Virus record (IMG/VR): IMGVR_UViG_3300046808_000165
Location: 1-52,956 of that record
DNA: 52,956 nucleotides
Direction: 5' to 3' (one strand)
Origin: a virus
The first letter of the stretch is position 1; each line of letters starts with the position of its first letter. The translations under genes were made by a program, and so were the position numbers. Below the pieces are notes generated by a model. That model saw nothing but the letters and a program-made list of their open reading frames with translations. It was not told the DNA's origin and searched no databases. Shown here piece by piece: positions 6,333-49,414 of the stretch.

Positions 6333-6956
6333 ATGAAAAGCCTAAAACAATACATTTTTGAGAGTGTGCATACTTATAATTGCACTATTAAAATCGCCGG
6401 TGAGGTCGATAAGAACTTCCTAGACCTATTTACATATAATCTTAAGAAGTTCGATCCTATCGAAATCTCATCTCCAACTACTACACCCATTCAAAAAGAC
6501 CCATATGGGTTTCCCAATCTAGCAAATGTACCAGTGACTATCATTAAAGGTAAGTTTCGCTATCCAGCGACAGAGCCAATGGTTCAACAAATGGCACAGT
6601 TACTAGGTTACAACGTTGATATGGTTCGTGTAGTTAATACTAACTATGATGATAGTATTAATGTTGAAAATGAAGAATACGAAAATCAAATGAAAGAAAG
6701 CCCACTACTAACTCATGAAGAAATGGGTTCAGCAGCCGGTGCAGAACAAGCAAATAAAGATTACAGCAATTCATATTTGAACAGTATTAAAGATCAAACT
6801 AAATCTGATAAAATTGGTATCCCTTATGCAGGTAAAGAAACACCTAATGCGTTTGACCCGTTCAAGCCATACTTAGATGATAAGCAGTTAGGTGATAAGA
6901 GTCCAATGAGTAAGATTAGTAGACCACCGAAGCCTAAGACTGGTGCGATGGTATAA
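6333..6956 (+). CDS. Conserved phage protein, possible prohead-core/capsid-targeted protein
   Basis: This 207-residue protein starts MKSLKQYIFES, which resembles T4 capsid-targeting sequences (for example MKTYQEFIAE in the internal proteins). Those are cut after a hydrophobic-x-Glu by the prohead protease; here the cut would follow IFE at residue 10. An alpha/beta domain follows (residues 12-100), with a Pro/Lys-rich tail. I chose the ATG at 6333 over an upstream in-frame start inside the terminase because the late promoter lies between them. It sits among head genes, so it is likely in the prohead core. The molecular function is unknown. Confidence 0.6.
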   Translation: MKSLKQYIFESVHTYNCTIKIAGEVDKNFLDLFTYNLKKFDPIEISSPTTTPIQKDPYGFPNLANVPVTIIKGKFRYPATEPMVQQMAQLLGYNVDMVRVVNTNYDDSINVENEEYENQMKESPLLTHEEMGSAAGAEQANKDYSNSYLNSIKDQTKSDKIGIPYAGKETPNAFDPFKPYLDDKQLGDKSPMSKISRPPKPKTGAMV

Positions 6957-14158: not shown

Positions 14159-14782
14159 ATGTCAAAAGTCACATTAGAATTATTAAAAGAAATTTGTCCT
14201 AAGACTAAATCAACAGTCTTAGCAAAATATGTTGAACCGTTGAATGAAGTGGGTGAACACTTTGGATTGTTTGAAAATCCAAAGCGTATGGCTGCATTCT
14301 TAGCACAAGTTGCACACGAATCAGGTGGTTTTAACTTTGTCAAAGAAGGACTAAGTTATTCAGCGGCTTCATTGAATAAAGTTTTCAAAAAGTATTTCCC
14401 AACACTAGAATCAGCAAAAGCATATGAACGTCAACCTGCAAAGATTGCAAACAAAGTTTATGCAAATCGTATGGGCAATGGTCCAGAGAGTTCAGGTGAT
14501 GGTTACAAGTATTGCGGGCGTGGGTTGATTCAATTGACCGGTAAAGATAACTACACCCGTTTTGCCAAAGCAATTGGTAAAACATTAGATGAAGCAGTTG
14601 CGTATTTAGAAACTTCAGAAGGCGCTGTAGCAAGTGCAGGATGGTTTTGGGACGCAAACAAATTAAGTGTTTATGCAGATAAAGGCGATTTCGTGGGTCT
14701 AACAAGACGTATCAATGGCGGTACAATTGGTCTTGCAGATAGACAACATCACTATGATATTGCACTTAAAGCATTAGCATAA
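14159..14782 (+). CDS. GH19 endolysin (chitinase-like muramidase)
   Basis: This 207-residue single-domain glycoside hydrolase family 19 enzyme is expected to cut peptidoglycan at lysis. The catalytic Glu is E54 in AQVAHESGGFNF, and the substrate-binding signature YCGRGLIQLTGKDNY is at about 118-132. Length is typical of phage GH19 lysins. There is no signal peptide, so release to the wall should need a holin; a holin-like gene lies at 25848. The start has a clear AAGGA upstream. A second, different GH19 enzyme with a targeting-like N-terminus lies at 37128. Confidence 0.88.
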   Translation: MSKVTLELLKEICPKTKSTVLAKYVEPLNEVGEHFGLFENPKRMAAFLAQVAHESGGFNFVKEGLSYSAASLNKVFKKYFPTLESAKAYERQPAKIANKVYANRMGNGPESSGDGYKYCGRGLIQLTGKDNYTRFAKAIGKTLDEAVAYLETSEGAVASAGWFWDANKLSVYADKGDFVGLTRRINGGTIGLADRQHHYDIALKALA

Positions 14783-32490: not shown

Positions 32491-32498
32491 GATAAATA
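32491..32498 (+). promoter_or_regulatory. Late-type promoter GATAAATA
   Basis: GATAAATA lies after the terminator and 24 bp before the ATG at 32523. It would drive the block of targeting-motif genes. Confidence 0.7.
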
Positions 32499-32522: not shown

Positions 32523-33230
32523 ATGAAAATCTCTGACATTTACGAATCAACTACAGCAGGCTCAGTAGCAACTGTTGCAACCCCAATGGGAGGCACACAG
32601 ACTCGTGGTAAGGGCGTATACCCTAACCAAAAGGGCGGTAACTTATTAACTGGTAAAAAGACTAATAAGAAGTTTGCTAACTCAATTAAAGAAAGTGCTA
32701 CAGTAAGCGAAGCAGAATTAAGCGAACAAGACTTAATTGTTATTCCTGGACAAGGCATGAAACGTAAATCTGGCTTTGTACCACATGGTGCAAGTCGTAT
32801 TGACCATGAAGTTGAAATGGCACGTAGTGACTTATTTCAATCAGTCAAAAATGCTAGAGCAGTTCATGAACTTATCAAAGATCGTAGCGAAGAAGAAGGT
32901 CTTGAAGGTTGGGTACAAGAAAAGATTATCAAAGCAAATGACTATCTAAACACAGTACGTGAATACCTAGAAGGTAAGAGTGTACATGAAATGACTGCAG
33001 GTACACTTGCAGGCGGTGTTGCCGCAGAATCAGTAGTCAGAGAAAAGGCTGTAAGCAAAGCACAGCAAAAGTTTTTTGGCATGGCACATGCTATGCAAAA
33101 AGGTGAAAAGATTAAAGGCGCTAGCAAAGATTTAAAAGATGTTGCTAAGTCAATGACAAAAGGTGACGTTAAAGACTTTGCTAAGACAAAGCATAAGGGT
33201 TTGCCACAACACGTATCTAAGAAGGACTAA
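32523..33230 (+). CDS. Capsid-targeted-type protein with DUF3008-like C-terminus
   Basis: This 235-residue protein starts MKISDIYESTTAGSVATVAT; IYE at 6-8 could be a prohead-protease site. The middle (HEVEMARSDLFQSVKNARAV, then EEEGLEGWVQEKIIKANDYL) is a helical domain that I recall from many T4-like marine phages. The C-terminus (SKAQQKFFGMAHAMQKGEK to VKDFAKTKHKGLPQHV) matches the small basic DUF3008 domain, found alone in bacteria. The function of neither domain is known. I infer a packaged internal protein from the N-terminus and from its neighbours. Confidence 0.65.
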   Translation: MKISDIYESTTAGSVATVATPMGGTQTRGKGVYPNQKGGNLLTGKKTNKKFANSIKESATVSEAELSEQDLIVIPGQGMKRKSGFVPHGASRIDHEVEMARSDLFQSVKNARAVHELIKDRSEEEGLEGWVQEKIIKANDYLNTVREYLEGKSVHEMTAGTLAGGVAAESVVREKAVSKAQQKFFGMAHAMQKGEKIKGASKDLKDVAKSMTKGDVKDFAKTKHKGLPQHVSKKD

Positions 33231-33233
33231 ACA

Positions 33234-34574
33234 ATGAGTAGCATCATGAAGGGTCTAGTGACCGAAAAGAAAAAGAAACCAAAGCCAACAAGTCCTGAAA
33301 AATGGGCTAGAGCAAAAGCAAAAGCCCGTAGCAAGTTTGATGTATATCCAAGTGCATATGCTAACGCCTATGCAAGCAAAGAATATAAAAAGATGGGCGG
33401 CGGCTGGCGTATGGGTGAGAGCATTGTAGACTTAGATGAAAACATGCTATCTACATATGCTGACATGTTTGACTTAGACGAAGCCGGTTATGATCCAATT
33501 GAACAATCAAAGCGTAATTTCAAACGCCGTGAACATGAAGCCGAATGGGAACGTGAACAAGAATTAGACCGTCAGCGTAAAGAGCAAGAAGGTGGTACCT
33601 GGTACATTCGTATTAATGGCAAAATCTTTAAAGACCGCAATGGCGACCCTGTTATGTTTAACGGCAAGAAGCATGCCAATGCAGTTGCAGTTAAGATGAT
33701 GCAGAAATCATTTAACGTTGGTAAAGAGTTCATGCTAACTACTAAACCTGAAGATACACAGCAAGGTGTATCAGAAGGTCACGCAGACCAACAACGCAAA
33801 ATCTTTAAGAAGAATGGCAAGCCAGTGGGCGAAGTTGGTATTGACCGTGAATCAAGTCCAGGTGTTGGACAATGGTACATGAAGTGCTACGAATTTGATA
33901 TTGACAATAGTGGCTATGACTCATACGAAGAAGCAGTGGCAGAACTAAAATATTGTCTAAAGCAAAGTGTAGCGGAAGCACAAGGTGACATATTACATGA
34001 TCCGGAATATTCATTGCCGGAAGCACGTAAGATTACTAAAGCAATTAAGTATGACGATACGGTAGGTGAAATCATTACTCAAATTCAAATGCTTGCAGAA
34101 CGTACAGAAGGTATTGACAGCAAAACATTAGAATATAGTATCGATGGCGTATTGTCTGCAAAGAATGCATTAGAATCAGCCGTATATGATTTAGAAGAAG
34201 CATTTGAAGATGCCGCACGTAATGCACAGTATAAGCGTGACGAAGAAGATTTAGACGAAGACTACACCGGTATATTTGCCGCAGAAAAGACTCCTGAAAC
34301 TAATCCATATGGTGGTTCAAAGGATCGCCAATTCAGAGGTGCTATCAGCGAGACACCAACTGATAATCCAACAGGCGCAAGTGGTGAAGGTGGCTGGAGA
34401 ACTTATCGTGCAAAGCCAGCAGGTCAGATTGATGAAGAAGAGCAACTTGATGAACTAAAATGCTGGCCAGGTTATACTAGAGTAAAAGGTGTACCTGCAG
34501 GCGCGCCCGGCAGTTGCAAAAAGAAAACAAAAGAATCATCTATTATGAAGGGCATCAGCCGTGAGAGCAAGTGA
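33234..34574 (+). CDS. Modular capsid-targeted-type protein with short phage motifs
   Basis: This 446-residue protein starts MSSIMKGLVTEKKKKPKP. Modules in order are: the phage motif KFDVYPSAYANAYASKEY...GGGWR (about 35-60); an alpha/beta domain TWYIRINGKIFKDRNGDPV (122-170); a related domain QRKIFKKNGKPVGEVGIDR (183-250); an acidic helical stretch; and CWPGYTRVKGVPAGAPGSC near 413-431. It ends ESSIMKGISRESK, so the SSIMKG peptide is present at both ends. Its last codons (GAG AGC AAG TGA) are the same DNA, in another frame, as the targeting cassette of the next gene. Activity is unknown. Confidence 0.65.
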   Translation: MSSIMKGLVTEKKKKPKPTSPEKWARAKAKARSKFDVYPSAYANAYASKEYKKMGGGWRMGESIVDLDENMLSTYADMFDLDEAGYDPIEQSKRNFKRREHEAEWEREQELDRQRKEQEGGTWYIRINGKIFKDRNGDPVMFNGKKHANAVAVKMMQKSFNVGKEFMLTTKPEDTQQGVSEGHADQQRKIFKKNGKPVGEVGIDRESSPGVGQWYMKCYEFDIDNSGYDSYEEAVAELKYCLKQSVAEAQGDILHDPEYSLPEARKITKAIKYDDTVGEIITQIQMLAERTEGIDSKTLEYSIDGVLSAKNALESAVYDLEEAFEDAARNAQYKRDEEDLDEDYTGIFAAEKTPETNPYGGSKDRQFRGAISETPTDNPTGASGEGGWRTYRAKPAGQIDEEEQLDELKCWPGYTRVKGVPAGAPGSCKKKTKESSIMKGISRESK

Positions 34575-34590
34575 GTTTATCATTGAAGGT
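34561..34590 (+). repeat. Targeting cassette copy 1 (MRASEFIIEG)
   Basis: The 30-bp start of the 34561 gene reads GTGAGAGCAAGTGAGTTTAT and onward. It is a near copy of the starts at 34860, 37128 and 37805. Confidence 0.8.
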
Positions 34591-34863
34591 TCTTACCAAG
34601 GTGGACTACGTAAGTGGTTTAAAGAGAAGTGGGTAAACCTCGCTAAAAAGAAAAAAGGTGGTGGGTATGAACAATGTGGTAGTTCAGGCGACTCTAAAGG
34701 ATATGCTAAGTGCGTGCCAGCAGCCAAGGCTGGCAGAATGTCCGACAAAGAAGAAAAGTCCGCAATCAATAGGAAGCGTTCAGCACAGCGCAAAGCAGGT
34801 AGACCCGGCAAAAGATCCGGGGGCAAAGGTAAAACACCGGTATTTGTAAAGACTGATAAATGA
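34561..34863 (+). CDS. Capsid-targeted-type DUF5872-like basic protein
   Basis: This 100-residue protein begins with MRASEFIIEG from a GTG codon and overlaps the previous gene by 14 bp. The rest is very basic, with GGLRKWFKEKWVNLAKKKKG, GGGYEQCGSSGDSKGYAKC (two conserved Cys) and a Lys/Arg-rich tail ending TPVFVKTDK. This layout matches the DUF5872 proteins that I recall from phages and giant viruses. Removal of the first 9 residues after IIE would leave a small DNA-binding-like peptide. It is coupled to the next gene by an ATGA overlap. Confidence 0.7.
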   Translation: MRASEFIIEGSYQGGLRKWFKEKWVNLAKKKKGGGYEQCGSSGDSKGYAKCVPAAKAGRMSDKEEKSAINRKRSAQRKAGRPGKRSGGKGKTPVFVKTDK

Positions 34864-34889
34864 GAGCAAGTGAATTCATTATAGAAGGT
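34860..34889 (+). repeat. Targeting cassette copy 2 (MRASEFIIEG)
   Basis: ATGAGAGCAAGTGAATTCAT followed by TATAGAAGGT. The first 21 bp are identical to copy 3 at 37128, and the ATG overlaps the previous stop as ATGA. Confidence 0.85.
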
Positions 34890-35990
34890 AACGATAAAGA
34901 GTTTCACACAGGTGGAGCCTTAGGATTACCTTTTCCTGGTAGTTACGAACAAGAATATAATATGTTCAAGCGTAAAGGTTCACGTAGAATCACTGCTATG
35001 ACTAATGAAGCACTTGACAGTTCATATGATTATGAAGGCAATGTTGTTGGGGGTAGATACTCTTTTGAAACCGAAGATGGTGTAGAATATAGAGTATATT
35101 TTAGTGGAAACAATTTAGTAGAAGTTTCATTTAATGCAAGTACTGACGGTGGCGATACTTGGAAGAGTACAATGATTGGTACCGGCGATGCGTATAAAGT
35201 ATTTGGTACTGTTATTAAGATTATTCAGGAATATGTAGAAGTGCATCAGCCACGTGCATTGTATTTCACCGCAGACAAAGACGAACGCGGACGTGTTAAT
35301 TTATATAAAACATTAGCCTCAAAAGTTGATAAAGTATTACCTAATTATATTGACGCAGGCCCAAATGATTTAGGTAGTGGTGTTGCGTTTATGGTAAAGC
35401 GTAAGGGTGACAAAATCAACTTTAGTGGTGAAGACGATCCTATCAATGAAGTTGCTGATAATCCATATGATTACATTCAGAACGTAAAGACACCCGACAA
35501 ACGTGCATATCGTTTTCAAACAGACGATGGCAATTTGTATAGAGTTCAAGTATTCAATCGCCGTAGTGACAACGAAAACAAATTAGAAATTCATTTTGAT
35601 CTTACAGATTTAAAAACAGGCAAACCTAATGCAGGCAAGACTGGTACGGGTGATAGTATTCGTGTGTTTGGCACTGTTGCTAATATCTTACAAAAAGAAG
35701 TACAAGACCAAAAGCCAACTGGAGTTATCATTGCTAGTAAAGCAGATGACGAAAGCAGACTTAAATTATATAGAACATTAGCACGTAGAGCAACTAAAAT
35801 AATGCCCGACTATGAAGTGGCAGGTGAGCGTACGGTTGCTGGTGGAGACGGTAATCAATATATCACAATCGAATTAAAGCGTAAAGAAAATGTAAATGAA
35901 AAGTGGAGTGAGAAGTATAAGCGTAGTATCAACTGCAATAACCCAAAAGGGTTTAGTCAACGTGCCCACTGTCAAGGACGTAAGAAATAA
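34860..35990 (+). CDS. Capsid-targeted-type protein with duplicated domain and Cys/His tail motif
   Basis: This 376-residue protein begins MRASEFIIEG. Two copies of an approximately 140-residue domain follow (about 62-185 and 208-340). Shared landmarks are YRVYFSGN...VEVSF / YRVQVFNR...LEIHF, GTGDAYKVFGTVIKIIQEYV / GTGDSIRVFGTVANILQKEV, and an acidic DKDERGRVNLYKTLA / ADDESRLKLYRTLA. The tail holds EKWSEKYKRSIN followed by CNNPKGFSQRAHCQGRK, a Cys/His phage motif that I recall from many T4-like proteins. The double domain is not one I can name. It is likely packaged with the DNA, by inference from the N-terminus. Confidence 0.65.
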   Translation: MRASEFIIEGNDKEFHTGGALGLPFPGSYEQEYNMFKRKGSRRITAMTNEALDSSYDYEGNVVGGRYSFETEDGVEYRVYFSGNNLVEVSFNASTDGGDTWKSTMIGTGDAYKVFGTVIKIIQEYVEVHQPRALYFTADKDERGRVNLYKTLASKVDKVLPNYIDAGPNDLGSGVAFMVKRKGDKINFSGEDDPINEVADNPYDYIQNVKTPDKRAYRFQTDDGNLYRVQVFNRRSDNENKLEIHFDLTDLKTGKPNAGKTGTGDSIRVFGTVANILQKEVQDQKPTGVIIASKADDESRLKLYRTLARRATKIMPDYEVAGERTVAGGDGNQYITIELKRKENVNEKWSEKYKRSINCNNPKGFSQRAHCQGRKK

Positions 35991-36002
35991 TAGAGATTGT
36001 CA

Positions 36003-36146
36003 ATGAGCCATTTAAATGATGTACAAATGACTTATTTTCAGCATTTACGCAGAGCATATAAGATTGCAGTAGTTCTATTAGTACATGGATTATTTCCAAA
36101 CGTTTGGAAAACTAAAGCACACGAATTACTTTGCGCACATAAATAA
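36003..36146 (+). CDS. Small membrane protein, DUF6356-like (47 aa)
   Basis: This 47-residue ORF (MSHLNDVQMTYFQHLRRAYK...) has one hydrophobic segment, IAVVLLVHGLFPNVW, followed by a short polar tail. The pattern YxxHxxxAxxxAxxLxVHGxFPxxW resembles DUF6356, a short membrane protein of bacteria and phages. It stands between the duplicated-domain gene and dps, after a modest ribosome binding site (agagattg). The late promoter of dps overlaps its stop codon. No function is known. Confidence 0.55.
   Translation: MSHLNDVQMTYFQHLRRAYKIAVVLLVHGLFPNVWKTKAHELLCAHK
36138..36145 (+). promoter_or_regulatory. Late-type promoter CATAAATA (dps)
   Basis: CATAAATA overlaps the stop of the 47-residue gene, 19 bp before the dps ATG, with caggaac as Shine-Dalgarno. 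Confidence 0.5.
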
Positions 36147-36164
36147 TATAAACAGGAACATAAC

Positions 36165-36608
36165 ATGTTAGCAGACGCACTTAAAACACTATTAGCAACT
36201 AGTTACGCATTCGTAATTAAAGCACAGAACTTTCATTGGAACGTAGAGGGTCCTAACTTCCCACAATACCATGAGTTTTTGGGTAACCTATATGAAGAAG
36301 TTTATGGCAATGCTATCGATCAAACTGCCGAACTAATTCGTCAATTGGATAGTTATACTCCAGGATCAATTACACGTTTCGCTGAATTGAGTCAGATTCC
36401 TGATCAAACTAAAATTCCACGTGCTGAACTAATGATTGCAGAATTGCAAGCAGACAATCAAAAGATTCTAGATATGTGGAAAGCCGCTTTCCCTATCGCC
36501 GAAGAAGAAAATGAGCAGGGTGTTGCAGACTTTATTGCAGGTCGCATTGATGCTCATGGTAAACATGGTTGGATGCTACGCAGTATCCTAAAGACGCAAC
36601 GTGCTTAA
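36165..36608 (+). CDS. dps: Dps-like ferritin
   Basis: This 147-residue protein belongs to the Dps/ferritin-like family that stores iron and protects DNA from oxidants. The ferroxidase signature is clear: NFHWNVEGPNFPQYHEFLGN (His and Trp of the dinuclear site at about 23-25, second His at 35), then LYEEVYGNAIDQTAELIRQL with the Asp/Glu ligands. The long DNA-binding N-terminal tail of E. coli Dps is missing. It would form a 12-mer. In a phage, it may limit host oxidative damage or accompany packaged DNA; both are inference. Its end overlaps the next gene by 8 bp. Confidence 0.85.
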   Translation: MLADALKTLLATSYAFVIKAQNFHWNVEGPNFPQYHEFLGNLYEEVYGNAIDQTAELIRQLDSYTPGSITRFAELSQIPDQTKIPRAELMIAELQADNQKILDMWKAAFPIAEEENEQGVADFIAGRIDAHGKHGWMLRSILKTQRA

Positions 36609-37131
36609 TGAAGCCAGCCCAGACAGTTTTCAAGGTAGCATGTCTGATGATCAAATCATCAGCAGGCTATGGATGGCCAAACGCCTAAAAAATACTAATA
36701 TCCCTATTAAAAAATGTGCTGTACTAGGTAGTTGGTACGGCATTTTGCCATATGTACTAAACAGAAACAATGATATTGAAGAGTTAGTAGCAATTGATAG
36801 TGAGCCGGGTTGCATAGAAGTTAGTAGAGAATTAAATCCTAATATAAAACATATTGTTAAAGATTGCAACGAACTAAAATATACTGGTGCAGACTGTGTT
36901 ATTAACCCTAGTGTTAATAACATTGAGGGTACTAAATGGTATGACAATATCCCTAAAGGTAAACTATGTTTGTTTCAAACAGAAGATATTGAAAACAGCG
37001 AAGGTTGTCCTAAAACTTTAGATGAGATGAAAAAGAAGTTCCCATTAACTAAATATCTATATCAAGGTACATTAAACACCACTGACAAAGATGGTGATTT
37101 TACTAGAAGTATGGTGATTGGATACAAATGA
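36601..37131 (+). CDS. SAM-dependent methyltransferase-like protein, GTG start
   Basis: This 176-residue protein has a Rossmann-type N-terminal half: [17 protein letters not shown] (motif I), [18 protein letters not shown] (acidic ribose-binding end of strand 2), and [20 protein letters not shown] (motif IV region). This is the layout of small class I methyltransferases of phages. The target is not evident. The GTG start overlaps the end of dps, and the N-terminus [18 protein letters not shown] agrees with similar phage proteins that I recall. The stop overlaps the ATG of the next gene as ATGA. Confidence 0.65.
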
Positions 37132-37157
37132 GAGCAAGTGAATTCATTGTTGAATAT
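37128..37157 (+). repeat. Targeting cassette copy 3 ([10 protein letters not shown])
   Basis: The first 21 bp are identical to copy 2 at 34860. The following bases GTTGAATATAAA match copy 4 at 37805 (GTTGAGTATAAA). Confidence 0.85.
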
Positions 37158-37808
37158 AAAGAAGTAGATGAAGGCTGGAAAGATGTTGCAGTCGGCTCTG
37201 CCTTAGCATTAGGTGCATTAGGTGGTGCATATGCAAAACTTCAACCAAACACACCTGCTACACAACAGCAAGTAGTACAACAAAAACAGTTTACTCCAAT
37301 CAGCAATAATCCACAAAACGAAATTCAATTATTAAAAACTGCTAAAGCCAATGGATTAAAGGGTGCTGAGTTAGCACAGTTCATGGCACAAACTAAACAT
37401 GAGAGTTGGGACTTTAACAGACTAAAAGAAAAGCCTCAACCAGGTGTTAAGGGTTATTTTAGTAAGAAGTATGATATTAAACATAGTCCTAAAACAGCAA
37501 AGATTCTTGGTAACAAGAAGGTAGGAGATGGCGAACGTTATCATGGTCGAGGATTTATTCAGTTGACAGGTCGTGACAATTATCGTATGGCAGGAGAAGC
37601 ATTAGGCCTTGACTTATTGAACAATCCTGAACTAGCGGCAAAGCCTGATGTTGCATCAAAAATCGCAATTTGGTATTGGAACAGTAGAGTTAAACCTAAC
37701 GTTCAAAACTTTAATGACACTAAAGCAGTTACTAGAAAGATCAATCCAGCAGTAAAAGGCCTCGAAGATAGAGAGTCTAATTTTAAAGATTACATGAGAA
37801 TGGTATGA
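37128..37808 (+). CDS. Capsid-targeted-type GH19 hydrolase
   Basis: This 226-residue protein fuses [10 protein letters not shown] and a hydrophobic stretch (about 19-35) to a GH19 domain (65-226). The catalytic Glu is E92 in [10 protein letters not shown], and the signature [16 protein letters not shown] is at 137-152. This differs from the endolysin at 14159, which lacks the leader. If the first 9 residues direct it into the prohead, it would be delivered with DNA and could act on the wall from inside or during entry. It is joined to its neighbours on both sides by ATGA overlaps. Confidence 0.78.
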
Positions 37809-37834
37809 GAGCAAACGAATTCATTGTTGAGTAT
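37805..37834 (+). repeat. Targeting cassette copy 4 ([10 protein letters not shown])
   Basis: ATGAGAGCAAACGAATTCAT differs from copy 3 by two bases in 20. It again starts within an ATGA overlap. Confidence 0.85.
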
Positions 37835-38269
37835 AAAGTAGACAACCGAAATGGACTAGGTGCAGTACCCTATAACCAAGACGTTGACTATTTTGGTATG
37901 CGTGTATTAATGAAGCCAAGTACATTTTTAAAATTAGCACTACCCTTAGATAAGCCAGTTAGTGTAGATCATATTGCACAACATCTTAAAGATGGCGGCA
38001 GTTTAGGTGCTCCCTTCTTAGATATTGCCATTCCTAAAGAATGGGAAGATGGCGATATGTCAGAACCTGCTAGAGTTTCAGGCCATGAAGGTAGAAATCG
38101 TATGCTAGCAATTCAGCAAGTACAAGGTGATGATCCAGTAGAAGTTCATATTTTCCCTAAAGGTGGGATGAGAGCAAGAGATTTAACACCTGAAATTAAA
38201 ACGGCATTACGTAATGGTATGGTGAATCAAGAACGAAATAGATTCATCAGTGGCGATTTATTTTCATAA
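37805..38269 (+). CDS. Capsid-targeted-type protein, possible ParB/Srx-like domain
   Basis: This 154-residue protein begins [17 protein letters not shown]. The remainder is alpha/beta, with [33 protein letters not shown] and [19 protein letters not shown] followed by [22 protein letters not shown] recalls the (D/E)GRHRxxA motif of ParB/sulfiredoxin-like domains, which occur in injected 'polyvalent' phage proteins. This is a weak comparison. The leader and position suggest that it is packaged cargo. A sigma70-like promoter for the next unit begins 6 bp after its stop. Confidence 0.6.
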
Positions 38270-38274
38270 AAAGG

Positions 38275-38303
38275 TTGACATTGGAATCCATTGATGCTAT
38301 TGT
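38275..38303 (+). promoter_or_regulatory. Sigma70-like promoter before the exported-protein region
   Basis: A perfect TTGACA, 17 bp, TATTGT. The next gene starts 58 bp further on, with a late-type GATAAATA in between, so this region may be read both early and late. Confidence 0.65.
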
Positions 38304-38334
38304 CAATTTACTGACTACATCTCATTCCAATCTA

Positions 38335-38342
38335 GATAAATA
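38335..38342 (+). promoter_or_regulatory. Late-type promoter GATAAATA
   Basis: GATAAATA lies 18 bp before the ATG at 38361, with aaagga as Shine-Dalgarno. Confidence 0.7.
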
Positions 38343-38360
38343 CATCAAAGGAATTATAAC

Positions 38361-38714
38361 ATGAAAATTCAAGATATTCTATTAGAAAGCAAGCATGACG
38401 ATTGGGATGATGATCGTGAAGAAATGCCAAGCGATCCTGATTCAGATAAGGTTCAGCATATTCTAATGCAGTTCAAAAAGGCTATGGACGTAGGTGGCAA
38501 CTATCCTATCACTTTCAAGAGCGGTGAAAAGACTAAAGTATCTCTTGATGACATTGAAAAGTTCGTAGAACGTTATGCTAGATCAAAGCCACTAGAGCGT
38601 GAACAAATGCAGACTAAGGCTATTCAAAGCATTGACGGATTAAAGGCTGTTCTTGCTGGTCCAGCCGGTCCTGCAGCCGAGAAGAGTTTATATCAACGTG
38701 GTGACTATGCGTAA
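38361..38714 (+). CDS. Capsid-targeted-type acidic protein, unknown function
   Basis: This 117-residue protein begins MKIQDILLESKHDD, with LLE at 7-9 as a possible prohead-protease site. The body is acidic and helical (DDWDDDREEMPSDPDSDK, VSLDDIEKFVERYARSKPL) and ends in an Ala/Gly-rich tail. I recall no family. It is preceded by both a sigma70-like and a late promoter, and its last 8 bp overlap the secreted nuclease gene, so it is the first gene of the unit leading into the exported cassette. Confidence 0.6.
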   Translation: MKIQDILLESKHDDWDDDREEMPSDPDSDKVQHILMQFKKAMDVGGNYPITFKSGEKTKVSLDDIEKFVERYARSKPLEREQMQTKAIQSIDGLKAVLAGPAGPAAEKSLYQRGDYA

Positions 38715-39153
38715 AGTCTTATTGTTAGCCACTGCTATTCTATTTGGTATTTCAGGAATTGCACATGCACAAAAGCCGGCAAATGGTGTAAGTTACGATG
38801 TGCAATTCACACGTGTAGTAGACGGTGACACAGTTGCATTCAAGGCAACTTTCTTACCTGCACCATTAAAGCAAGAACTTGCATTGCGTGTATACGGTGT
38901 TGATACTCCTGAAAAGGGTTTTCGTGCAAAATGTCCTAGCGAAGATGCACGTGGTAAAGCCGCTACTAAGTTTACTACAGATGCAATCAATGCAAGTAAA
39001 AGCCACAAGATTGTTCTAATGGATTGGGACAAGTATGGTGGTCGTGTACTAGGCGATATCGTATTAGATGGTCAAAGTTTACGTGCAATGCTAATTCAAA
39101 ACGGCTACGCAAGAGAATACTACGGAGAAGCAAAGACTTCTTGGTGTAACTAA
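38707..39153 (+). CDS. Secreted staphylococcal-nuclease-like endonuclease
   Basis: This 148-residue protein has a Sec signal peptide (1-21, cut after AHA) and an SNase domain. The calcium- and substrate-binding pattern is present: VVDGDTV (D39, D41), RVYGVDTPE (R61, D66, E69) and DKYGGRVLG (R113), equivalent to R35, D40, E43 and R87 of the S. aureus enzyme. Three Cys (C76, C147 and none near the active site) could form one disulfide in the periplasm. A phage enzyme exported to the periplasm could destroy incoming DNA of competitors or scavenge nucleotides. I chose the ATG at 38707 because the signal peptide begins there; an upstream in-frame start would break it. Confidence 0.85.
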   Translation: MRKVLLLATAILFGISGIAHAQKPANGVSYDVQFTRVVDGDTVAFKATFLPAPLKQELALRVYGVDTPEKGFRAKCPSEDARGKAATKFTTDAINASKSHKIVLMDWDKYGGRVLGDIVLDGQSLRAMLIQNGYAREYYGEAKTSWCN

Positions 39154-39236
39154 CATACCTCAGGACCGTTGAGTTATGTGCCCGGCTGCTGGGCTACAGA
39201 TGGATTCGCTACCCTAAATGTAAAAGTGAGCATTTA
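39153..39236 (+). ncRNA. Structured intergenic element (three hairpins)
   Basis: Hairpin 1 pairs ACATACCTCA with TGAGTTATGT (10 bp, one mismatch, loop GGACCGT). Hairpin 2 follows with no gap: GCCCG with TGGGC (loop GCTGC). Hairpin 3 pairs TAAATG with CATTTA. There is no T run, so it is not a simple terminator. It lies at the head of the exported-protein operon and may be a cis-acting RNA. The call is from pairing by eye; no known riboswitch family was recognised. Confidence 0.4.
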
Positions 39237-39270
39237 TAATCTATATACACTTATTATTACCCCGTAATAC

Positions 39271-39278
39271 ATTAAATA
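39271..39278 (+). promoter_or_regulatory. Possible late-type promoter ATTAAATA
   Basis: The motif ends 4 bp before an ATG at 39283, the leaderless geometry seen elsewhere, and 52 bp before the more likely start at 39331. Confidence 0.4.
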
Positions 39279-39330
39279 TATAATGTCCGAAAGTCAAAAA
39301 CTTTCTGGTATAACCTGGGGAATAATAATA

Positions 39331-40671
39331 ATGATAAAAAGAATCCTGGGATGTGCCGGTTTGTTGGCTTACCTGCTAACATCCACTGCGGCCATCGCTC
39401 AAACAACTAATACAAGTACACAGAGTACTACTGGTGGTACCACTACCAGCACAACTACTCCTATCAATCAAGGTGGTTACACAAGTACTTCATTGGTAGA
39501 TACTAATAGTACTAGCAATAGTACCAGCACTGTTACTACTAATAACAACACTACTACGAATAATACAAGTACAAGTACGTCAACTGTTAATAGTACTAAC
39601 ACTAATACTAATACTAGCACTTCGGTTAATACTAACAACAATATACAAAGTGGTACAGTTACTAATATTAACCAAAACACTAGTAATGGTACAATGACCT
39701 ATAACAATAATAACGTTAATAGCGGCACTGTTACTTACAACAATAATAATAACAACGTCAATTCAGGTACAGTAACTTATAACAATAACAACGTTAATAC
39801 TGGTACATTGAATTACAACAATAACAATGTCAATACGTCATCAAGTACTAGTACCAACGTGAACACAAATAATAATGTGAACACCGGTACAATGACCTAC
39901 AACAATAATAATGCTAGCACCTCAGTTAATACAAACAACAATATTAACAGCGGTACAATGACTTATAATAACAACAACGTAACGTCATCTAATAATGTTA
40001 ATACTAACAACAATATTAATAGCGGTACGATGACTTATAACAACAATAACGTCAGTACAAGCAATTCTAATAATGTTAACACCAATAATAATATTAACAG
40101 TGGTACAATGACTTATAATAACAATAATGTTAATGCTAGTACATCTACTGCTACTAACAATAACAATAATGTAAGTACAAGTACATCAGTTAATACCAAT
40201 GTAAATCAAAATACTAGTACTGCTACTAACAATAACAACAATGTTAATACTAATACGTCATCTAATACCAATGTGAATATTCAACAAGGTGAGATGACTA
40301 ACCGTAATATCAACGAAACAACAGTTACACAAAAAGTTATTCAGCCTCCTCCAACAGCAATTGCTCCCGCAATGATGAGTGTGGGTACTGATCTTTGCGT
40401 TACTGGTGTTAGTGGTGCGGCACAGACTCAGATTTTAGGTATCAGTGTCGGTACTACACAACGTGACAAGAATTGTGAACGATTAAAAATTAGTAAGACA
40501 TTATTCGATATGGGTATGAAAGTTGCAGCCGTTGCGGCAATGTGTCAAGACCGTCGTGTATTTGATGCTATGATGGCAGCAGGTACCCCTTGTCCATATG
40601 AAGGTATGATTGGTGAGCAGGCTAAAGTTGCATGGGCCGCAAATCCTAAAAAGATGCCTAAGGAAGACTAA
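39331..40671 (+). CDS. Secreted Asn/Thr/Ser-repeat protein
   Basis: This 446-residue protein has a Sec signal peptide (MIKRILGCAGLLAYLLTSTA..., cut near AIA-QTT at about residue 24). Residues 25-325 are almost only Asn, Thr, Ser, Val, Gly and Tyr, with eight copies of SGT(M/V)TYNNNNVN-type units that could form a beta-solenoid or adhesin-like stalk. The C-terminal domain (about 335-446) is globular with four Cys (DLCVTGV, NCERLKISKTLFDMGMKV, AAMCQDRRVF, TPCPYEG), suited to periplasmic disulfides; I recall it from other marine T4-like phages. I prefer the ATG at 39331 (GGGGA upstream) over 39283, which would add 16 residues. It overlaps the next gene by one base. Confidence 0.7.
   Translation: MIKRILGCAGLLAYLLTSTAAIAQTTNTSTQSTTGGTTTSTTTPINQGGYTSTSLVDTNSTSNSTSTVTTNNNTTTNNTSTSTSTVNSTNTNTNTSTSVNTNNNIQSGTVTNINQNTSNGTMTYNNNNVNSGTVTYNNNNNNVNSGTVTYNNNNVNTGTLNYNNNNVNTSSSTSTNVNTNNNVNTGTMTYNNNNASTSVNTNNNINSGTMTYNNNNVTSSNNVNTNNNINSGTMTYNNNNVSTSNSNNVNTNNNINSGTMTYNNNNVNASTSTATNNNNNVSTSTSVNTNVNQNTSTATNNNNNVNTNTSSNTNVNIQQGEMTNRNINETTVTQKVIQPPPTAIAPAMMSVGTDLCVTGVSGAAQTQILGISVGTTQRDKNCERLKISKTLFDMGMKVAAVAAMCQDRRVFDAMMAAGTPCPYEGMIGEQAKVAWAANPKKMPKED
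39685..40131 (+). repeat. Eight-copy Asn-rich coding repeat
   Basis: Copies of GT(M/V/L)(T/N)YNNNN(V/A) follow one another at intervals of about 36-75 bp, with VNTNNNIN spacers. Codons differ between copies. Confidence 0.85.
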
Positions 40672-42659
40672 TGCACTTCTTTAAGGGTGTAGTACTATCT
40701 TTATTAGTGCTAATGCCACATATCGCATTAGCACAAAATACTAGCGGTGATGTTGTTACTGCCGGTACTACCCAACCTGCCTTAGACCCCAATCAAATAT
40801 ATAATACAGGTAACATCGTTCAACCTACTGTAACAGGTACAGGAACAACACCATGGATCAATGGTGTATATCAAGATCAACTGACATGTTGGGCTCCTGG
40901 TCAACCCGGTAACTGTGGACCCAACCCAAGCGTTCGTCCCGGCGGCTATATCAACTTCAGTTATGGTACAACAGACTTGTATCAAGTACAAGCAATTAGC
41001 AGTGTACTTCCTAATTCTGGTACTGGACTACGAGTTAATGGATATAACTTTAGTTTTACTGCTAAGAATGGTAATGGCTGGGATGACGCTAGGGTAGATT
41101 ATTTAAATGCATATGTAAATTTTTCCGGCACTGATGGTAAGTCAGTACGATATGATTATTATGATTTGAATTATAAGTTTGATTGGACTTATTTTAACTA
41201 TGACAAAACATTTGACACTCCATTTGCAAGTAAAGACTTAAGTACAGTTCGTTATGGTTTTGTTGGACGTGATAATAACTTTTGGGCAGGTGCATATGGT
41301 CCTGAAGTTATGAATGTTAGTTTCAGTTTAAAGTACAGCGTTGACCCTTGCGCTACAAATGTATTGAGTAGTCCATCATGTCCGGGATACTTAGATGCAT
41401 TAGCAAAAATAATTACAATTGAAACTATAGCGCCAGCACCCACTACAACTACGGTAGTTTCCGAACCAACACCCACTACAACTACAACGGTTACTGCTAC
41501 CGTAACAGAAATAGTTGTTCCTACTCAAACTCAAACAACACAACCTACACAAACTGTTGCGACTACTAGCCCTGCAAACTCAAGTTCAGTTGTAGCAGTA
41601 CAACCAGTTGTTGCTCCTGTTGTCGCAAATCCAGTTGCATCTACCCAATCTAGCAGTTCTGATAAAACACAGTCAGGTCCAACGTTGAGTAATATATTGA
41701 GTACTATCAGAAACAATGAAAAGAAAGAGCAAGCAATTGTTCAGAACGCAGTAGACAATGCTAATGCGGTTGCACAGAGTGCGGTTGCACAAGCAGAACA
41801 AACTGCATTAAGTGTTGCCAGCGCATCAAATAGTAACAGTATTACAATTGCAAACGAGTCAGTGCAAACATCAACTACTAATAGGTCTAGTTCGCAATCT
41901 AGTGTTGCAATGTCAAGTGGACCTTCTAACACCACATTAAGTTCAACACAGGCAACTAGTAGTATGCAACAACTAACTTCACAAAATGCATCAACTATTT
42001 CTATTACTAACAATACACAAAATCAAGCAGTGGTTAGTACTAACATTGCAAATATGTTATTAATGCCTCAATCTGCTTTGCAACAAGTGCAACAATCTAG
42101 TAATAGTACAGGCACTTTATTACCTGTTAATAACAATCAATCACCTGCAACTAATACTACAGTTACCCCTACACTGGCAATAGAAACACCGGTCAATACA
42201 AATGCACAGACAACTACAGCAACAAACTCTCAACCAGTTGTAGTTGAGGGAGTAGTAGCATTATTAAAGCCAAACACATCAGAAGCAAAATTAGAAGGTG
42301 AACGCAATACTATACCACTAAGTGTTTTGACAAATCGTGCTGATCCAATGTTTGAATACTTTGAGAGAAATACACAGTTTCAATCAAATAATTCACTAGA
42401 AGCAAGACCTAGTAACGTTAATAAAAACGCAGAAAATAATGAGGTTGCAGGTGTCGTAACAGTTGAAAGAATGAATGTAGTGCCAGTAGGGTATTCAGTA
42501 TACACTAGTTTATTCTTACAAGATGTTGCATTTTATGCACCCAAAGAAATCTATAGAAACCAAAAGGTTATAGATAATCAAAGAGCAGTCAGAGTGTTGA
42601 ACTTTGCTAGCGAATTAAAACACCAAGAAATGGTGAATCAACAATATGGAGAAAAATAA
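40671..42659 (+). CDS. Large secreted protein, unknown function
   Basis: This 662-residue protein has a Sec signal peptide (residues 1-21, cut near ALA-QNT). A beta-rich N-terminal domain (30-240) with two Cys pairs (LTCWAPGQPGNCGPN and DPCATN...SPSCPG) is followed by a long Thr/Val/Gln/Ser-rich linker (245-535). A compact C-terminal domain (about 545-662) holds LKPNTSEAKLEGERNTIPLS and LFLQDVAFYAPKEIYRNQ. I recall such C-termini in other marine T4-like phages next to a repeat protein like the preceding one. It is translationally coupled on both sides, so the pair and the following membrane protein probably act together outside the cytoplasm. Confidence 0.65.
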   Translation: MHFFKGVVLSLLVLMPHIALAQNTSGDVVTAGTTQPALDPNQIYNTGNIVQPTVTGTGTTPWINGVYQDQLTCWAPGQPGNCGPNPSVRPGGYINFSYGTTDLYQVQAISSVLPNSGTGLRVNGYNFSFTAKNGNGWDDARVDYLNAYVNFSGTDGKSVRYDYYDLNYKFDWTYFNYDKTFDTPFASKDLSTVRYGFVGRDNNFWAGAYGPEVMNVSFSLKYSVDPCATNVLSSPSCPGYLDALAKIITIETIAPAPTTTTVVSEPTPTTTTTVTATVTEIVVPTQTQTTQPTQTVATTSPANSSSVVAVQPVVAPVVANPVASTQSSSSDKTQSGPTLSNILSTIRNNEKKEQAIVQNAVDNANAVAQSAVAQAEQTALSVASASNSNSITIANESVQTSTTNRSSSQSSVAMSSGPSNTTLSSTQATSSMQQLTSQNASTISITNNTQNQAVVSTNIANMLLMPQSALQQVQQSSNSTGTLLPVNNNQSPATNTTVTPTLAIETPVNTNAQTTTATNSQPVVVEGVVALLKPNTSEAKLEGERNTIPLSVLTNRADPMFEYFERNTQFQSNNSLEARPSNVNKNAENNEVAGVVTVERMNVVPVGYSVYTSLFLQDVAFYAPKEIYRNQKVIDNQRAVRVLNFASELKHQEMVNQQYGEK

Positions 42660-42661
42660 TA

Positions 42662-43219
42662 ATGAGTATTATTGACGAAAAATCAATTCAAGAAGCAAAG
42701 CCATACGAATTAAGTATTGCTGGTTTCAAACTAAAACTAAACAGCACTTTGTTTGCTGTGGCTATTCCTGTACTAACTACACTAGGTGGTGCGGCGTGGG
42801 GCGGCTTTCAGTTCTACACTGACTATATGAACATGAGAGCAAAGATTGAAAAGTATATTGCTCCTGACTTAACAACATTTGACAAGCGTTTGGCTGTCAT
42901 TGAAGAGAATAGTCAAAAGCAATTAGAATATACACGTGATATTAAGATTGACTTAAAGAATGATGTTCGCCGTTTAGATGACGTAGTATCCGATGTAGAA
43001 CGTACTGCTAAGACTAGCCAACGTGAAACTGACAATAGTGTTAGAGATTTACGTTCAGAGGTTCGTTCTATTCGCGGTGATATGGAAAGCACATTAAAAG
43101 CAAACAACAGAGAAGTACAATCAACTGTTAACGAACTAAAACGTGAGAACCAAAGTTTGGAACGTAGACTAGAAGGTAAGATCAAGCAGGCACTTGACAA
43201 TCCTTTGGCCAACAGATAA
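42662..43219 (+). CDS. Membrane-anchored coiled-coil protein
   Basis: This 185-residue protein has one transmembrane segment (about 31-50, LFAVAIPVLTTLGGAAWGGF) after a short cytoplasmic part. A long predicted coiled coil runs from about 75 to 178 (RLAVIEENSQ..., VRRLDDVVSDVERTAKTS, ELKRENQSLERRLEGK). With positive-inside logic, the coiled coil probably lies in the periplasm, but orientation is not certain. It is the third gene of the tightly spaced exported operon (2 bp after the preceding stop) and may tether the two secreted proteins to the inner membrane. I recall similar genes in marine T4-like phages. Confidence 0.65.
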   Translation: MSIIDEKSIQEAKPYELSIAGFKLKLNSTLFAVAIPVLTTLGGAAWGGFQFYTDYMNMRAKIEKYIAPDLTTFDKRLAVIEENSQKQLEYTRDIKIDLKNDVRRLDDVVSDVERTAKTSQRETDNSVRDLRSEVRSIRGDMESTLKANNREVQSTVNELKRENQSLERRLEGKIKQALDNPLANR

Positions 43220-43243
43220 AAAAATTTACACACAGAGACCTGA

Positions 43244-43251
43244 CTTAAATA
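43244..43251 (+). promoter_or_regulatory. Possible late-type promoter CTTAAATA
   Basis: A TAAATA core lies 45 bp before the outer-membrane protein gene. The same octamer occurs before PhoH on the minus strand. Confidence 0.35.
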
Positions 43252-43296
43252 TTAATATCGTAGACAATACGATTCTTTAAAAAGAGGAAAAACTAT

Positions 43297-43869
43297 ATGA
43301 AGAAACTTTTAACAGTAGCACTATTGGCAGTAGCCACACTACCCGCAACAGCATTTGCGGACTCATCATTAACCGGTGAAGTTCGTTTTTCTGATCCACG
43401 TGGTGGTAGGGCTGACAGCACTGAGTATCGTGTCGAAGCATGGAAAAAGGCTTTTGGCTCAGTACTAGTAGGTGCAGAACTTCAGGCTCGCCAGCCTGAA
43501 AATGAAGGCAAGTTGACTTCTAAGGTTTCAGTTAAGGCTGGAACTGAATTAAGTGAATTTGCTGGATTCAAGCCAGTAGCCTACACAGAAGTTGGTCAAC
43601 ATCTCGCTGATCATGTAAGTGGTGGAAACTTTAACTTTTGGGGTGCAGGCCTCAAGGTTAGTCGCCCACTAACAGCAGGTTTAACCCTCAACGCTGGCTA
43701 TCGCCATCGTGAAGGTTTTAGCGATGGTAATCTTAAGGAAGATCGTCTACATGGCGGCATTTCATATGCATTAACTAAGAAGACCAATGCAGGAGTTACT
43801 TATTATCGTACACGTAGTGGCGGTAATGACACTGATGCAATTGGCGTAGGACTTACAACAAAGTTCTAA
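43297..43869 (+). CDS. Outer-membrane beta-barrel protein
   Basis: This 190-residue protein has a classic signal peptide (residues 1-21, ending ATAFA) and a mature part of about eight to ten amphipathic strands with alternating hydrophobic residues (for example SVLVGAELQARQ, NFNFWGAGLKVSR, GLTLNAGYRHREGF, KTNAGVTYYRTRSG). It ends GVGLTTKF, the C-terminal Phe typical of proteins inserted by the Bam complex. Size fits a small OmpA/OmpW-like barrel. A phage-encoded barrel could mask or replace receptors and block superinfection; this is inference. It has a strong ribosome binding site (agaggaaa) and a terminator just after it. Confidence 0.72.
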   Translation: MKKLLTVALLAVATLPATAFADSSLTGEVRFSDPRGGRADSTEYRVEAWKKAFGSVLVGAELQARQPENEGKLTSKVSVKAGTELSEFAGFKPVAYTEVGQHLADHVSGGNFNFWGAGLKVSRPLTAGLTLNAGYRHREGFSDGNLKEDRLHGGISYALTKKTNAGVTYYRTRSGGNDTDAIGVGLTTKF

Positions 43870-43889
43870 TACATCTTAGATGTTTAAAG

Positions 43890-43920
43890 AGTAAGCCCGG
43901 GTTATCTCGGGCTTACTTTT
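43890..43920 (+). terminator. Rho-independent terminator
   Basis: AGTAAGCCCG pairs with CGGGCTTACT (10 bp) and is followed by a short T run. It ends the exported-protein block; a late promoter starts 3 bp later. Confidence 0.85.
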
Positions 43921-43922
43921 GG

Positions 43923-43930
43923 GATAAATA
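43923..43930 (+). promoter_or_regulatory. Late-type promoter GATAAATA, near-leaderless
   Basis: GATAAATA ends 7 bp before the ATG at 43938, and there is no Shine-Dalgarno. With T4 late geometry the leader would be only about two bases. Confidence 0.65.
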
Positions 43931-43937
43931 CTAGACT

Positions 43938-44642
43938 ATGAGAGCCACAGAATTTATTACAGAACGCAAGAATAAGAGAAAAAAATCCAAACTTAGGAAA
44001 TACTTCTTTCCTGGGTTCGCTTACTATGGCTTAGGTGGCAGTGAGTCAGGTGATGCCGGCGGGGACGCAGGTGGTGAGAGCATCCATGAAACAGCAGTAT
44101 CAGAATTAGCAAAAGAATTACCTTCATTGAAAAAGCACGATTATGATACAATTGATTTATTGATGAGAAAGATTTCTAAGAAACACCATATAACCGGTAA
44201 AGCATTGCATGATTTATTCGTAAAACAATATAAGGCAACTCCTGACAATTGGATCAAAGGTAAACTTGATGAAGTCGATAATGTAGATTGTGACTTAGAA
44301 CATGAAGTTGATAAGTTTACTCAATGGGCTTGTGAAAAACTTCATATTAAAGATACACCCAAAATTCAATTAAGTATGGACACCGAAGAAGCGCAAACAA
44401 ATCATCATACCGGTGGACATGTTATGGGTGACGATAAAGTTTGGGTATATACTGCAAACAGAAACTTAGTTGATATTTTGCGTACTGTATTCCATGAACT
44501 AGTTCATGTACGTCAGGGTGAATTGAATATGATTAAGCCGGGCGATAGTTATCCAGGCAGTCCTATTGAAGCAATGGCAGACATGCTTGCTGGAAAATAT
44601 ATTAAAATCTATGGTGAGAAAAACAGACATATATTTCAGTAA
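43938..44642 (+). CDS. Capsid-targeted-type zinc metallopeptidase
   Basis: This 234-residue protein begins MRATEFITERKNKRKKS, with ITE as a possible cleavage site. A helical domain follows (about 50-108, YDTIDLLMRKISKKHHITGK), which I recall from other phages. The C-terminal domain (115-234) has the zinc motif HELVH (186-190), in RTVFHELVHVRQGE, and a downstream E211 in PIEAMADMLAGK as a possible third ligand. It should be an active protease. If packaged, it would enter the cell with the DNA, a protein counterpart of T4 Alt. It has its own late promoter and ends one base into the next ATG. Confidence 0.75.
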   Translation: MRATEFITERKNKRKKSKLRKYFFPGFAYYGLGGSESGDAGGDAGGESIHETAVSELAKELPSLKKHDYDTIDLLMRKISKKHHITGKALHDLFVKQYKATPDNWIKGKLDEVDNVDCDLEHEVDKFTQWACEKLHIKDTPKIQLSMDTEEAQTNHHTGGHVMGDDKVWVYTANRNLVDILRTVFHELVHVRQGELNMIKPGDSYPGSPIEAMADMLAGKYIKIYGEKNRHIFQ

Positions 44643-45748
44643 TGCAGGAATATATCTTTCTTCATCTATCCCATTATTCATCTAAAAACTTCTATTGTCA
44701 TGTAGACATAGAAAATTTTTATTTGGATATCAAAGATATCAGCGAACATCACGGTGATAAAACTGTATTATTATTTCACATCTTTGAAAATTTAGAATTA
44801 AGCCAAATCAATGCATTTGGACTAGAAGCGTTTAGGAATATACTTGATCATTTTAAAGTAAAATACTATTTTGTGTTAGATGGACTTTATCAAGGTCAAC
44901 ACCAACTTATCAATTCACATAACATCATTACACTTAATTGGGGCATGTTATATGTGTATTATAATACCATGATAAAAAACCATGAAAGGATAGAAGCATA
45001 TAATCCTGTTACAGGTAAAGGATTGTTCTTTTGTGGTAAGGGCAATAAACCCCATAGAATTGGTTTATTAAAAAAGTTTTATGAAACTGATACTCTGCAC
45101 AATCTAACTTGGTCATACATCAATACAGACGTAGAAAAACAACAAATAAAAAATGAATTCTTTTCTGAATACACTGATGAAGACTATATCCACTTTACAC
45201 AACAATGTGAAAGAGTACTAGATTACACTCCTGAATATGATGAAAACTCATGGACCTTTTCGCACTTTGGATACCCATGCGATCTTAATTTATACAAGAA
45301 CACAGGATTTAGTATCATCAGTGAAACTTGGGTAAATTTCGGTACACATTTAATGACTGAAAAAACTTGGAGAGTGATTTCAAATAAGCACCCATTCATT
45401 ATGGTTGGATCACCTTATAATGTTATTAAACTTAAACAGTTAGGATTCAAAACGTTTAATGAATATCTTACTATTCCCGATTATGATACCATTGACCATT
45501 TAGACGATAGGCTTGATGCGGTTGTCACTAATGCATCCAATTTAAGAACATTGCTTGAGAAAAAAGAACCCGAACTAATGGAACAACTAAAAATCGATAC
45601 GGAATATAATTGTGCTAGATTTAACCAATTAGCACGTGACGATATCAATAATTTCCTTTCTGCTTTACAAGCAGACGAAAGTTTATTAGAATCAATTGTT
45701 GAATTTCATCATCACCAACTAAAATTTATACGCAATCAAAACGGTTAA
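44642..45748 (+). CDS. Glycosyltransferase-like protein
   Basis: This 368-residue protein has no leader. The C-terminal half has FSIISETWVNFGTHLMTEKT followed by WRVISNKHPFIMVGSP, YNVIKLKQLGFKTFNEY and DYDTIDHLDDRLDAVV. TEKTW...HPF(I)xxG with GFKTF resembles GT-B transferases such as fucosyltransferase family 10, where this region binds the sugar nucleotide. I recall similar phage genes annotated only as hypothetical. The N-terminal half is less conserved. The substrate is unknown. It follows the metallopeptidase with a one-base overlap. Confidence 0.5.
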   Translation: MQEYIFLHLSHYSSKNFYCHVDIENFYLDIKDISEHHGDKTVLLFHIFENLELSQINAFGLEAFRNILDHFKVKYYFVLDGLYQGQHQLINSHNIITLNWGMLYVYYNTMIKNHERIEAYNPVTGKGLFFCGKGNKPHRIGLLKKFYETDTLHNLTWSYINTDVEKQQIKNEFFSEYTDEDYIHFTQQCERVLDYTPEYDENSWTFSHFGYPCDLNLYKNTGFSIISETWVNFGTHLMTEKTWRVISNKHPFIMVGSPYNVIKLKQLGFKTFNEYLTIPDYDTIDHLDDRLDAVVTNASNLRTLLEKKEPELMEQLKIDTEYNCARFNQLARDDINNFLSALQADESLLESIVEFHHHQLKFIRNQNG

Positions 45749-45756
45749 ATTAGATA

Positions 45757-49406: not shown

Positions 49407-49414
49407 ACAAGTCA

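Follow-up and report, generated by a model that had tools for sequence, protein, structure and literature searches.

What does a peptide of nine or ten residues do when it opens a series of otherwise unrelated viral genes? The question is raised by IMG/VR record IMGVR_UViG_3300046808_000165, a fragment of a T4-like myovirus whose 52,956 bases, all from the one record, make up the stretch analysed here (the window). An earlier interpretation of the DNA without database searches (the sequence-only reading) had claimed nearly identical N-termini for five genes of the window, and all five are present (Table 1); their common form is (M/V)RAxEFIxE, and the sequences behind it are unrelated. We argue here that this nine-residue leader, more generally MRAxEF(I/L)xE, is most probably a T4-type capsid-targeting propeptide that loads its cargo for delivery with the DNA, a reading to which we assign a probability of about 0.87.

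When the N-termini of all open reading frames (ORFs) in the window were compared with one another, six high-scoring pairs emerged, every one between leader genes, and the internal control gave none. Over residues 13-42 the same six pairs have negative scores, so the cargo behind the leader is unrelated, as had been proposed. The same test recovered the leader family in a 367-kb contig (G007) and found none in phages RaK2 and Phosso. The cargo identities first suggested (a GH19 hydrolase, an HELVH metallopeptidase, a DUF5872-like protein, a protein with a duplicated domain and a ParB/Srx-like protein) hold when examined by Pfam, PHROG, motif and AlphaFold/Foldseek comparisons. The leader is retained in L235 and L236, orthologs of the window GH19 protein at 37128, and by most orthologs of the ParB/Srx-like protein at 37805. 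In the AlphaFold model of the latter the leader is the low-confidence part (residues 1-10, 59), and a fold search of the PDB returned ParB/Srx matches, all below threshold. Looser versions of the leader had also been proposed for four genes: those at 6333, 32523 and 38361 are present as described and that at 6975 is weak, to which we add MKGLVTEK at 33246. The protein at 32523 clusters with L071, whose leader is MRASEFIAE.

The observation is confirmed and is far larger than the window. A search of IMG/VR with a degenerate pattern for MRA(S/T/R..)EFIxE, in which Ser was allowed at residue 2, found at least 120 further stretches. Among the matches listed, the leader stands at the start of a substantial ORF in 120 of the 125 that were usable, and residue 2 is Arg in every viral match though the pattern permitted Ser. 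Cellular genomes totalling 257 Gb contain the pattern just 27 times; most of these hits lie within genes or off the reading frame, and nine have Ser at position 2. Simple base arithmetic puts this number near chance, and a general bacterial motif is thereby ruled out. A looser pattern found the leader in all 25 IMG/VR records tested, where the reversed control had no match, and found nothing in four cultured relatives. Up to seven copies occur per contig, arranged in tandem arrays. By DNA polymerase, two jumbo phages, Phosso (48%) and Atu_ph07 (45%), stand closest to the window among cultured relatives, followed by CBB and RaK2; Megablast of the leader-gene region against cultured phages gave no match. 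A search of related phages for the same leader had been suggested as a check, and its outcome is that many IMG/VR contigs carry it and that the MRAxEF family was not found in the isolates RaK2, CBB and Phosso.

If the leader is a propeptide, its cut site should be the part that selection preserves. To avoid circularity, we took 73 MRAxEF starts without selecting for the remainder of the motif. Among these, position 7 is I in 41, L in 20 and V in nine (I or L in 61 of 73), and 66 have E at position 9. Position 8 is unconstrained, and conservation falls from position 10 onward, where the residues vary. The peptide MRATEFITE occurs in 20 copies with 18 different DNA spellings, a codon variety that implies selection at the level of the peptide. 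The orthologs of the window metallopeptidase (43938), a family with 537 relatives among the candidates, carry about two dozen dissimilar short leaders, for example MISKNFIAE, MLSVDIINE, MRFNEILSE, MKLQTIINE, MLGDEIILE and MRSTELYE. Nearly all of these place (I/L)-x-E (in one case V) at one junction, behind which the mature proteins share the start S/T-A-A/V-x-x-L-A-x-x-L-P-S-L. In members with long leaders, a second hydrophobic-x-E (SMYE, SIHE) lies at this junction after a basic, Gly-rich linker. This is the pattern that selection for a protease of gp21 specificity would leave. The hydrophobic-x-Glu site claimed for the leaders is thus borne out, in the form (I/L)-x-E, both by the unselected starts and by the orthologs. 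A peptidase homolog in cyanophage B23 starts MNYKQFLRE/S (here and below a slash marks the putative cut).

Several lines of evidence link the leader to the head of T4, whose protease gp21 cleaves at L/I-X-E and in which 10 residues suffice for targeting (PMC9026906). We built a five-residue position-specific scoring matrix (PSSM) of EFIxE from the leaders of uncultured phages alone, without T4, and scanned it over 252 T4 ORFs; ranks one, two and three fell to ipIII, ipII and alt, as confirmed by annotation. IPIII, IPII and Alt are head-packaged proteins that T4 injects. Of the leader-bearing contigs, 11 of 24 in a first set and four of 16 in a second encode an S77/gp21 protease; these are mostly the largest, so that its absence from short contigs is expected. 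The gene order around S77 in these contigs is that of the T4 block, core-S77-scaffold (gp22)-capsid protein (gp23). In related contigs the propeptides of gp23-like capsid proteins end LLAE, LLKE, YLKE, LQE or LSE, and the capsid propeptide has the putative L-x-E cut site of the leaders. Putative promoters point the same way: all 14 copies of the T4-type late promoter element ATAAATA in the window are on the plus strand and none is on the minus strand, and the element also precedes gene 6333. Among 195 leader genes, 16 have it no more than 60 bp upstream, where about 1.8 would be expected, and none has it in antisense. By this measure the leader genes would be of late type. The T4-type interpretation first offered is thus well supported by comparison, through the EFIxE profile, the head block, the ortholog junctions and the late promoters.

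Based upon these observations, we propose a model in which proteins with the leader at their N-terminus are produced from late promoters and the leader, as in T4, would bind the prohead core during head assembly. A prohead protease of the S77/gp21 type would then cut after (I/L)-x-E, as conservation of the site suggests, and the mature cargo would stay inside the DNA-filled head, to enter the next host together with the DNA like the T4 internal proteins (IPs) and Alt. What the sequences show is the leader, the conservation of its site, the range of cargo behind it, the T4 head block with the same cut motif in the capsid protein, and the late promoter elements; that the cargo is packaged, cut and injected, and what it does, is inferred. 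Since only the leader would be recognised, unrelated genes could be recruited behind it.

The breadth of the cargo is in keeping with such recruitment. Counting those of the window, we collected 201 tagged proteins among the matches listed, of which 179 remain at 90% identity, and they form 45 cargo clusters, which supports the earlier description of a swappable cargo system; 145 of the 201 sit in two clusters. Domains found behind the leader include GH19, SLT, LysM, GNAT, NUDIX, DUF6934, DUF6321, HTH, ART-PolyVal and NT5C-like. The commonest cargo is a family of about 125 amino acids (101 of the 201 proteins; L004-L123, alignment A2), which ends SPVxxFKGYKK and is often in tandem; it has no PHROGs match and none in cultured phages, and its AlphaFold model is weak, with a predicted local distance difference test score (pLDDT) of 72. 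The unrelated tagged proteins L007, L036, L067, L075 and L107 have a YHxT, FHYT or WHGT motif shortly behind the leader or linker and are possibly ADP-ribosyltransferase folds like T4 Alt. Pfam backs this call for L107 alone (ART-PolyVal, E 4.7e-14) and leaves most YHxT proteins unrecognised, and the name is motif-based for all but L107.

Several points weigh against the capsid-targeting model. The tagged phages are uncultured, and the content of their virions is predicted from sequence; the window, a 53-kb fragment, has neither an S77 protease nor a capsid gene; E9 is missing in about 10% of MRAxEF starts; and RaK2 and Phosso, relatives by DNA polymerase, possess S77 and no recognisable leader family, so the leader is not universal. 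Moreover, the most frequent cargo, the family of about 125 amino acids, might be part of the head core and not an effector for delivery. This last point leads to the alternative that survives best, namely that the leader is a signal for the head core or scaffold and nothing more, with tagged prohead components being mostly degraded or lost. That one family, often in tandem, accounts for half of the tagged proteins, and T4 core proteins are likewise cleaved at L/I-x-E (PMC9026906). However, enzyme- or effector-like domains such as GH19, SLT, M48, GNAT, NT5C-like and ART-PolyVal make poor sense as scaffold, and the top matches of the profile in T4, IPIII, IPII and Alt, are proteins that are injected; we consider this alternative unlikely. 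It is quite improbable that the leader addresses a site other than the head, such as the membrane, a replication compartment or a regulated site for a host protease, and resembles that of T4 by convergence. Some tagged proteins do have a Tat or hydrophobic export-type segment directly behind the leader, but a hydrophobic stretch occurs in just seven of 207, the capsid protein of leader-bearing phages has the same cut motif, and expression is late-type. It is scarcely credible that the leader is a functionless peptide encoded by a mobile 5' module (ribosome-binding site and first codons). Although 34860 and 37128 are identical over their first 21 nt and tagged genes form tandem arrays, chance or simple 5'-end recombination is largely refuted by the synonymous variation through which the peptide is kept, upstream sequences differ, the I/L-x-E end survives replacement of the remaining leader, and the T4 IPs match.

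Within the reading preferred here, that of a capsid-targeting propeptide, one class of cargo carries what may be a second address. In L036:413-1294 the leader is followed by a Pfam TAT_signal (twin-arginine translocation, Tat) at residues 10-30 and then by LysM and SLT domains. A scan for the leader plus RRxF returned 35 stretches, and 17 of the 27 different proteins listed combine the leader with a Tat signal, in a layout such as MRASEFITE/DMSRRGFLGALGAGAMAASGVAQA/... and with the twin arginine two to four residues behind the E of the leader. In all ten proteins sampled the Pfam TAT_signal match starts at residue 9 or 10; two of the ten exceed the Pfam cut-off and seven exceed that of NCBIfam TIGR01409. 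Outside the window these proteins display the hallmarks of Tat signals, a twin-arginine motif, an h-region and an A-x-A end. About 20 distinct proteins in total, with at least five cargo types, have this tandem arrangement: mostly GH19, with M48 peptidases (L384, L389, L395), SLT/LysM proteins, a GNAT (L376) and others. In 2.1 Mb of phage loci we counted 22 Tat-like N-termini, 21 of them plausible after removal of one antisense artefact, and 17 of the 21 have a standard leader; this census is skewed, since the leader-plus-RR pattern had served to fetch many of the loci; L035 and L375 themselves do not match that pattern. Three further Tat-like N-termini (L338, L377 and L409) retain (I/L/V)-x-E just before the Tat region, in the forms MKITE/IDRR, MDLGE/DISRR and KVLE/DLSRR. 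A leader-Tat GH19 protein and S77 occur together in one 374-kb contig (G049). The window GH19 protein at 37128 is 66% identical to a Tat-bearing ortholog (L392), but it and its close orthologs have no twin arginine, a Sec-like hydrophobic segment replacing the Tat signal. In L407 and L408 the open frame begins further upstream, with a basic Ala/Lys-rich domain ahead of the Tat signal, which would need proteolysis or an internal start to function.

It is plausible, at about even odds, that these are nested address labels, the capsid leader being cut to expose a Tat signal for export in the next host. The prohead protease would remove the first label within the head and so uncover the second, and the injected enzyme would be exported by the Tat system of the new host, reaching the peptidoglycan from inside. 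Alternatively, such enzymes may be exported in the producing cell, the leader merely diverting a share of them into heads. As far as we found, the leader-Tat tandem has no earlier description in the literature. If real, it would represent a new logic of protein addressing, in which one protein carries the addresses of two compartments in tandem, one for each of two consecutive hosts, with the prohead protease as the switch.

A comparable arrangement exists in a cultured relative. Phage Atu_ph07 (NC_042013) has at 41844-50592 a tandem array of ten genes, gp054-gp063, with the common leader M(R/K)xxQLxE; the starts read M(R/K)WxQL(T/N/I)E, or MRLFQLLE in gp063, and most have a YRG motif behind. 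Products of 29 among CDS 31-76 were detected in purified virions, a figure for the cluster as a whole (PMC6102473). The genes gp054-gp063 fall within this range, and the numbering matches the record at gp204 (protease) and gp215 (capsid). The YRG proteins are unrecognised by Pfam and are, by motif, possible ADP-ribosyltransferases. The adjoining gp053 has a zeta-toxin-type kinase domain.

Table 1. Leader genes, related genes and late promoter elements of the window (a slash marks the putative cut).
Feature	Coordinates	Strand	Basis
Leader (GTG start) VRASEFIIE/G, small basic DUF5872-like protein	34561..34863	+	Pfam DUF5872 E 7.9e-5 (below cut-off); PHROG 23735 E 1.2e-15
Leader MRASEFIIE/G, duplicated DUF6934 domain	34860..35990	+	Pfam E 4.2e-11; leader PSSM score 17.9
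Ten-residue leader, hydrophobic Sec-like segment (residues 20-36), GH19 hydrolase	37128..37808	+	Pfam GH19 E 7.5e-17
Ten-residue leader, ParB/Srx-like domain	37805..38269	+	AlphaFold pLDDT 92; Foldseek BFVD 'ParB/Sulfiredoxin' E 8e-20
Leader MRATEFITE/R, basic/Gly linker ending SIHE/T, HELVH zinc-peptidase domain	43938..44642	+	Sequence motif
Looser leader MKISDIYE/S, DUF3008-ending protein	32523..33230	+	Late promoter upstream
Candidate looser leader MKGLVTE/K (weak)	33246..34574	+	Internal ATG of 33234 ORF
Looser leader MKIQDILLE/S	38361..38714	+	Late promoter upstream
Looser leader MKSLKQYIFE/S	6333..6956	+	Late promoter upstream
782-aa protein, weak N-terminal L-S-E/A, internal EFIAE/A (7308-7322)	6975..9323	+	Sequence
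Second GH19 hydrolase, without leader	14159..14782	+	Pfam GH19 E 4e-7; 31% identity to 37128 over domain
Late promoter ATAAATA before 32523-35990 unit	32492..32498	+	Motif scan
Late promoter element before 36165-38269 unit (including Dps-like, GH19 and ParB/Srx-like)	36139..36145	+	Motif scan
Late promoter element before 38361	38336..38342	+	Motif scan
Late promoter element before 43938	43924..43930	+	Motif scan

Other features of the window deserve brief mention. The untagged GH19 hydrolase at 14159 is probably an ordinary endolysin and provides an internal contrast to the tagged one. Inside the late protein at 6975-9323, EFIAE/A is the motif of the IPII/IPIII cut site of T4, and the product is possibly a processed head-core protein. 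Between leader genes, at 38704-43869, lies a row of four apparently exported proteins: an SNase with a signal peptide (38704), an Asn/Thr-repeat protein (39331), a 662-residue protein with a signal peptide (40671) and a small protein resembling an outer-membrane barrel, also with a signal peptide (43297). A short stand-alone protein at 19743-20267 has a GRGSSVSS motif that recalls the alpha subunit of C-family DNA polymerase III, and a similar ORF is found in G007 near 280.5 kb. Finally, about 1 kb at 23725-24725 lacks a plausible plus-strand gene, where the map is otherwise dense on that strand; it contains a minus-strand open frame of 310 residues and a late-promoter element at 24650.

Should the capsid-targeting reading be correct, a signature of ten residues would list, from sequence, the head-packaged proteins that enter first in infections by uncultured T4-like and jumbo phages. 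T4 Alt and the anti-restriction Ips belong to this class of injected head proteins, very few members of which have a known function. The question of what phages inject would become searchable, with the 45 cargo clusters as candidates.

The leader system is of a known kind, that of the T4 capsid targeting sequences (CTS); its breadth, its enzyme cargo and the leader-Tat tandem are, to our knowledge and after a search of the literature, new. Like the CTS of IPI, IPII, IPIII and Alt, which gp21 cuts, the leader is a short N-terminal propeptide with an EF(I)xE end and an L/I-x-E motif, common to unrelated late proteins, and related phages have the same block of head genes (PMC9026906). The core differs, being MKTYQ in T4 and MRA in the uncultured phages, and the latter have far more cargo families, many enzymes, tandem arrays and, in some proteins, export signals behind the cut; their packaging is predicted. 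The polymorphism of T-even internal proteins (Repoila 1994) likewise places one signal on variable, exchangeable accessory proteins. T-even Ip1-Ip3 inhibit GmrSD restriction (PMC12373910). The T-even Ips, of which at least 10 are known, are small inhibitors, in contrast to the GH19, GNAT, M48 and ADP-ribosyltransferase (ART) enzymes of the uncultured jumbo-type phages. The Atu_ph07 array shares the tandem late arrangement, a leader before a YRG-bearing domain and a cluster rich in virion proteins, but its cargo is paralogous, its leader consensus is another one, and virion detection is known for the cluster as a whole. In SPN3US and phiKZ, ejection (E) proteins also have an N-terminal propeptide that is cut by the prohead protease (PMC7411985), whereas their propeptides run to about 110-130 residues, the motif is A-x-E and the heads are phiKZ-like rather than gp23-type. 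Polyvalent proteins (PMC5512222) share ART-PolyVal, metallopeptidase and ParB/Srx-like domains and a predicted packaging in the head. They are, however, large, with multiple effector domains joined in a single long chain, whereas the cargo of the window is short and, like tagged cargo in general, mostly single-domain, each protein carrying its own address label.

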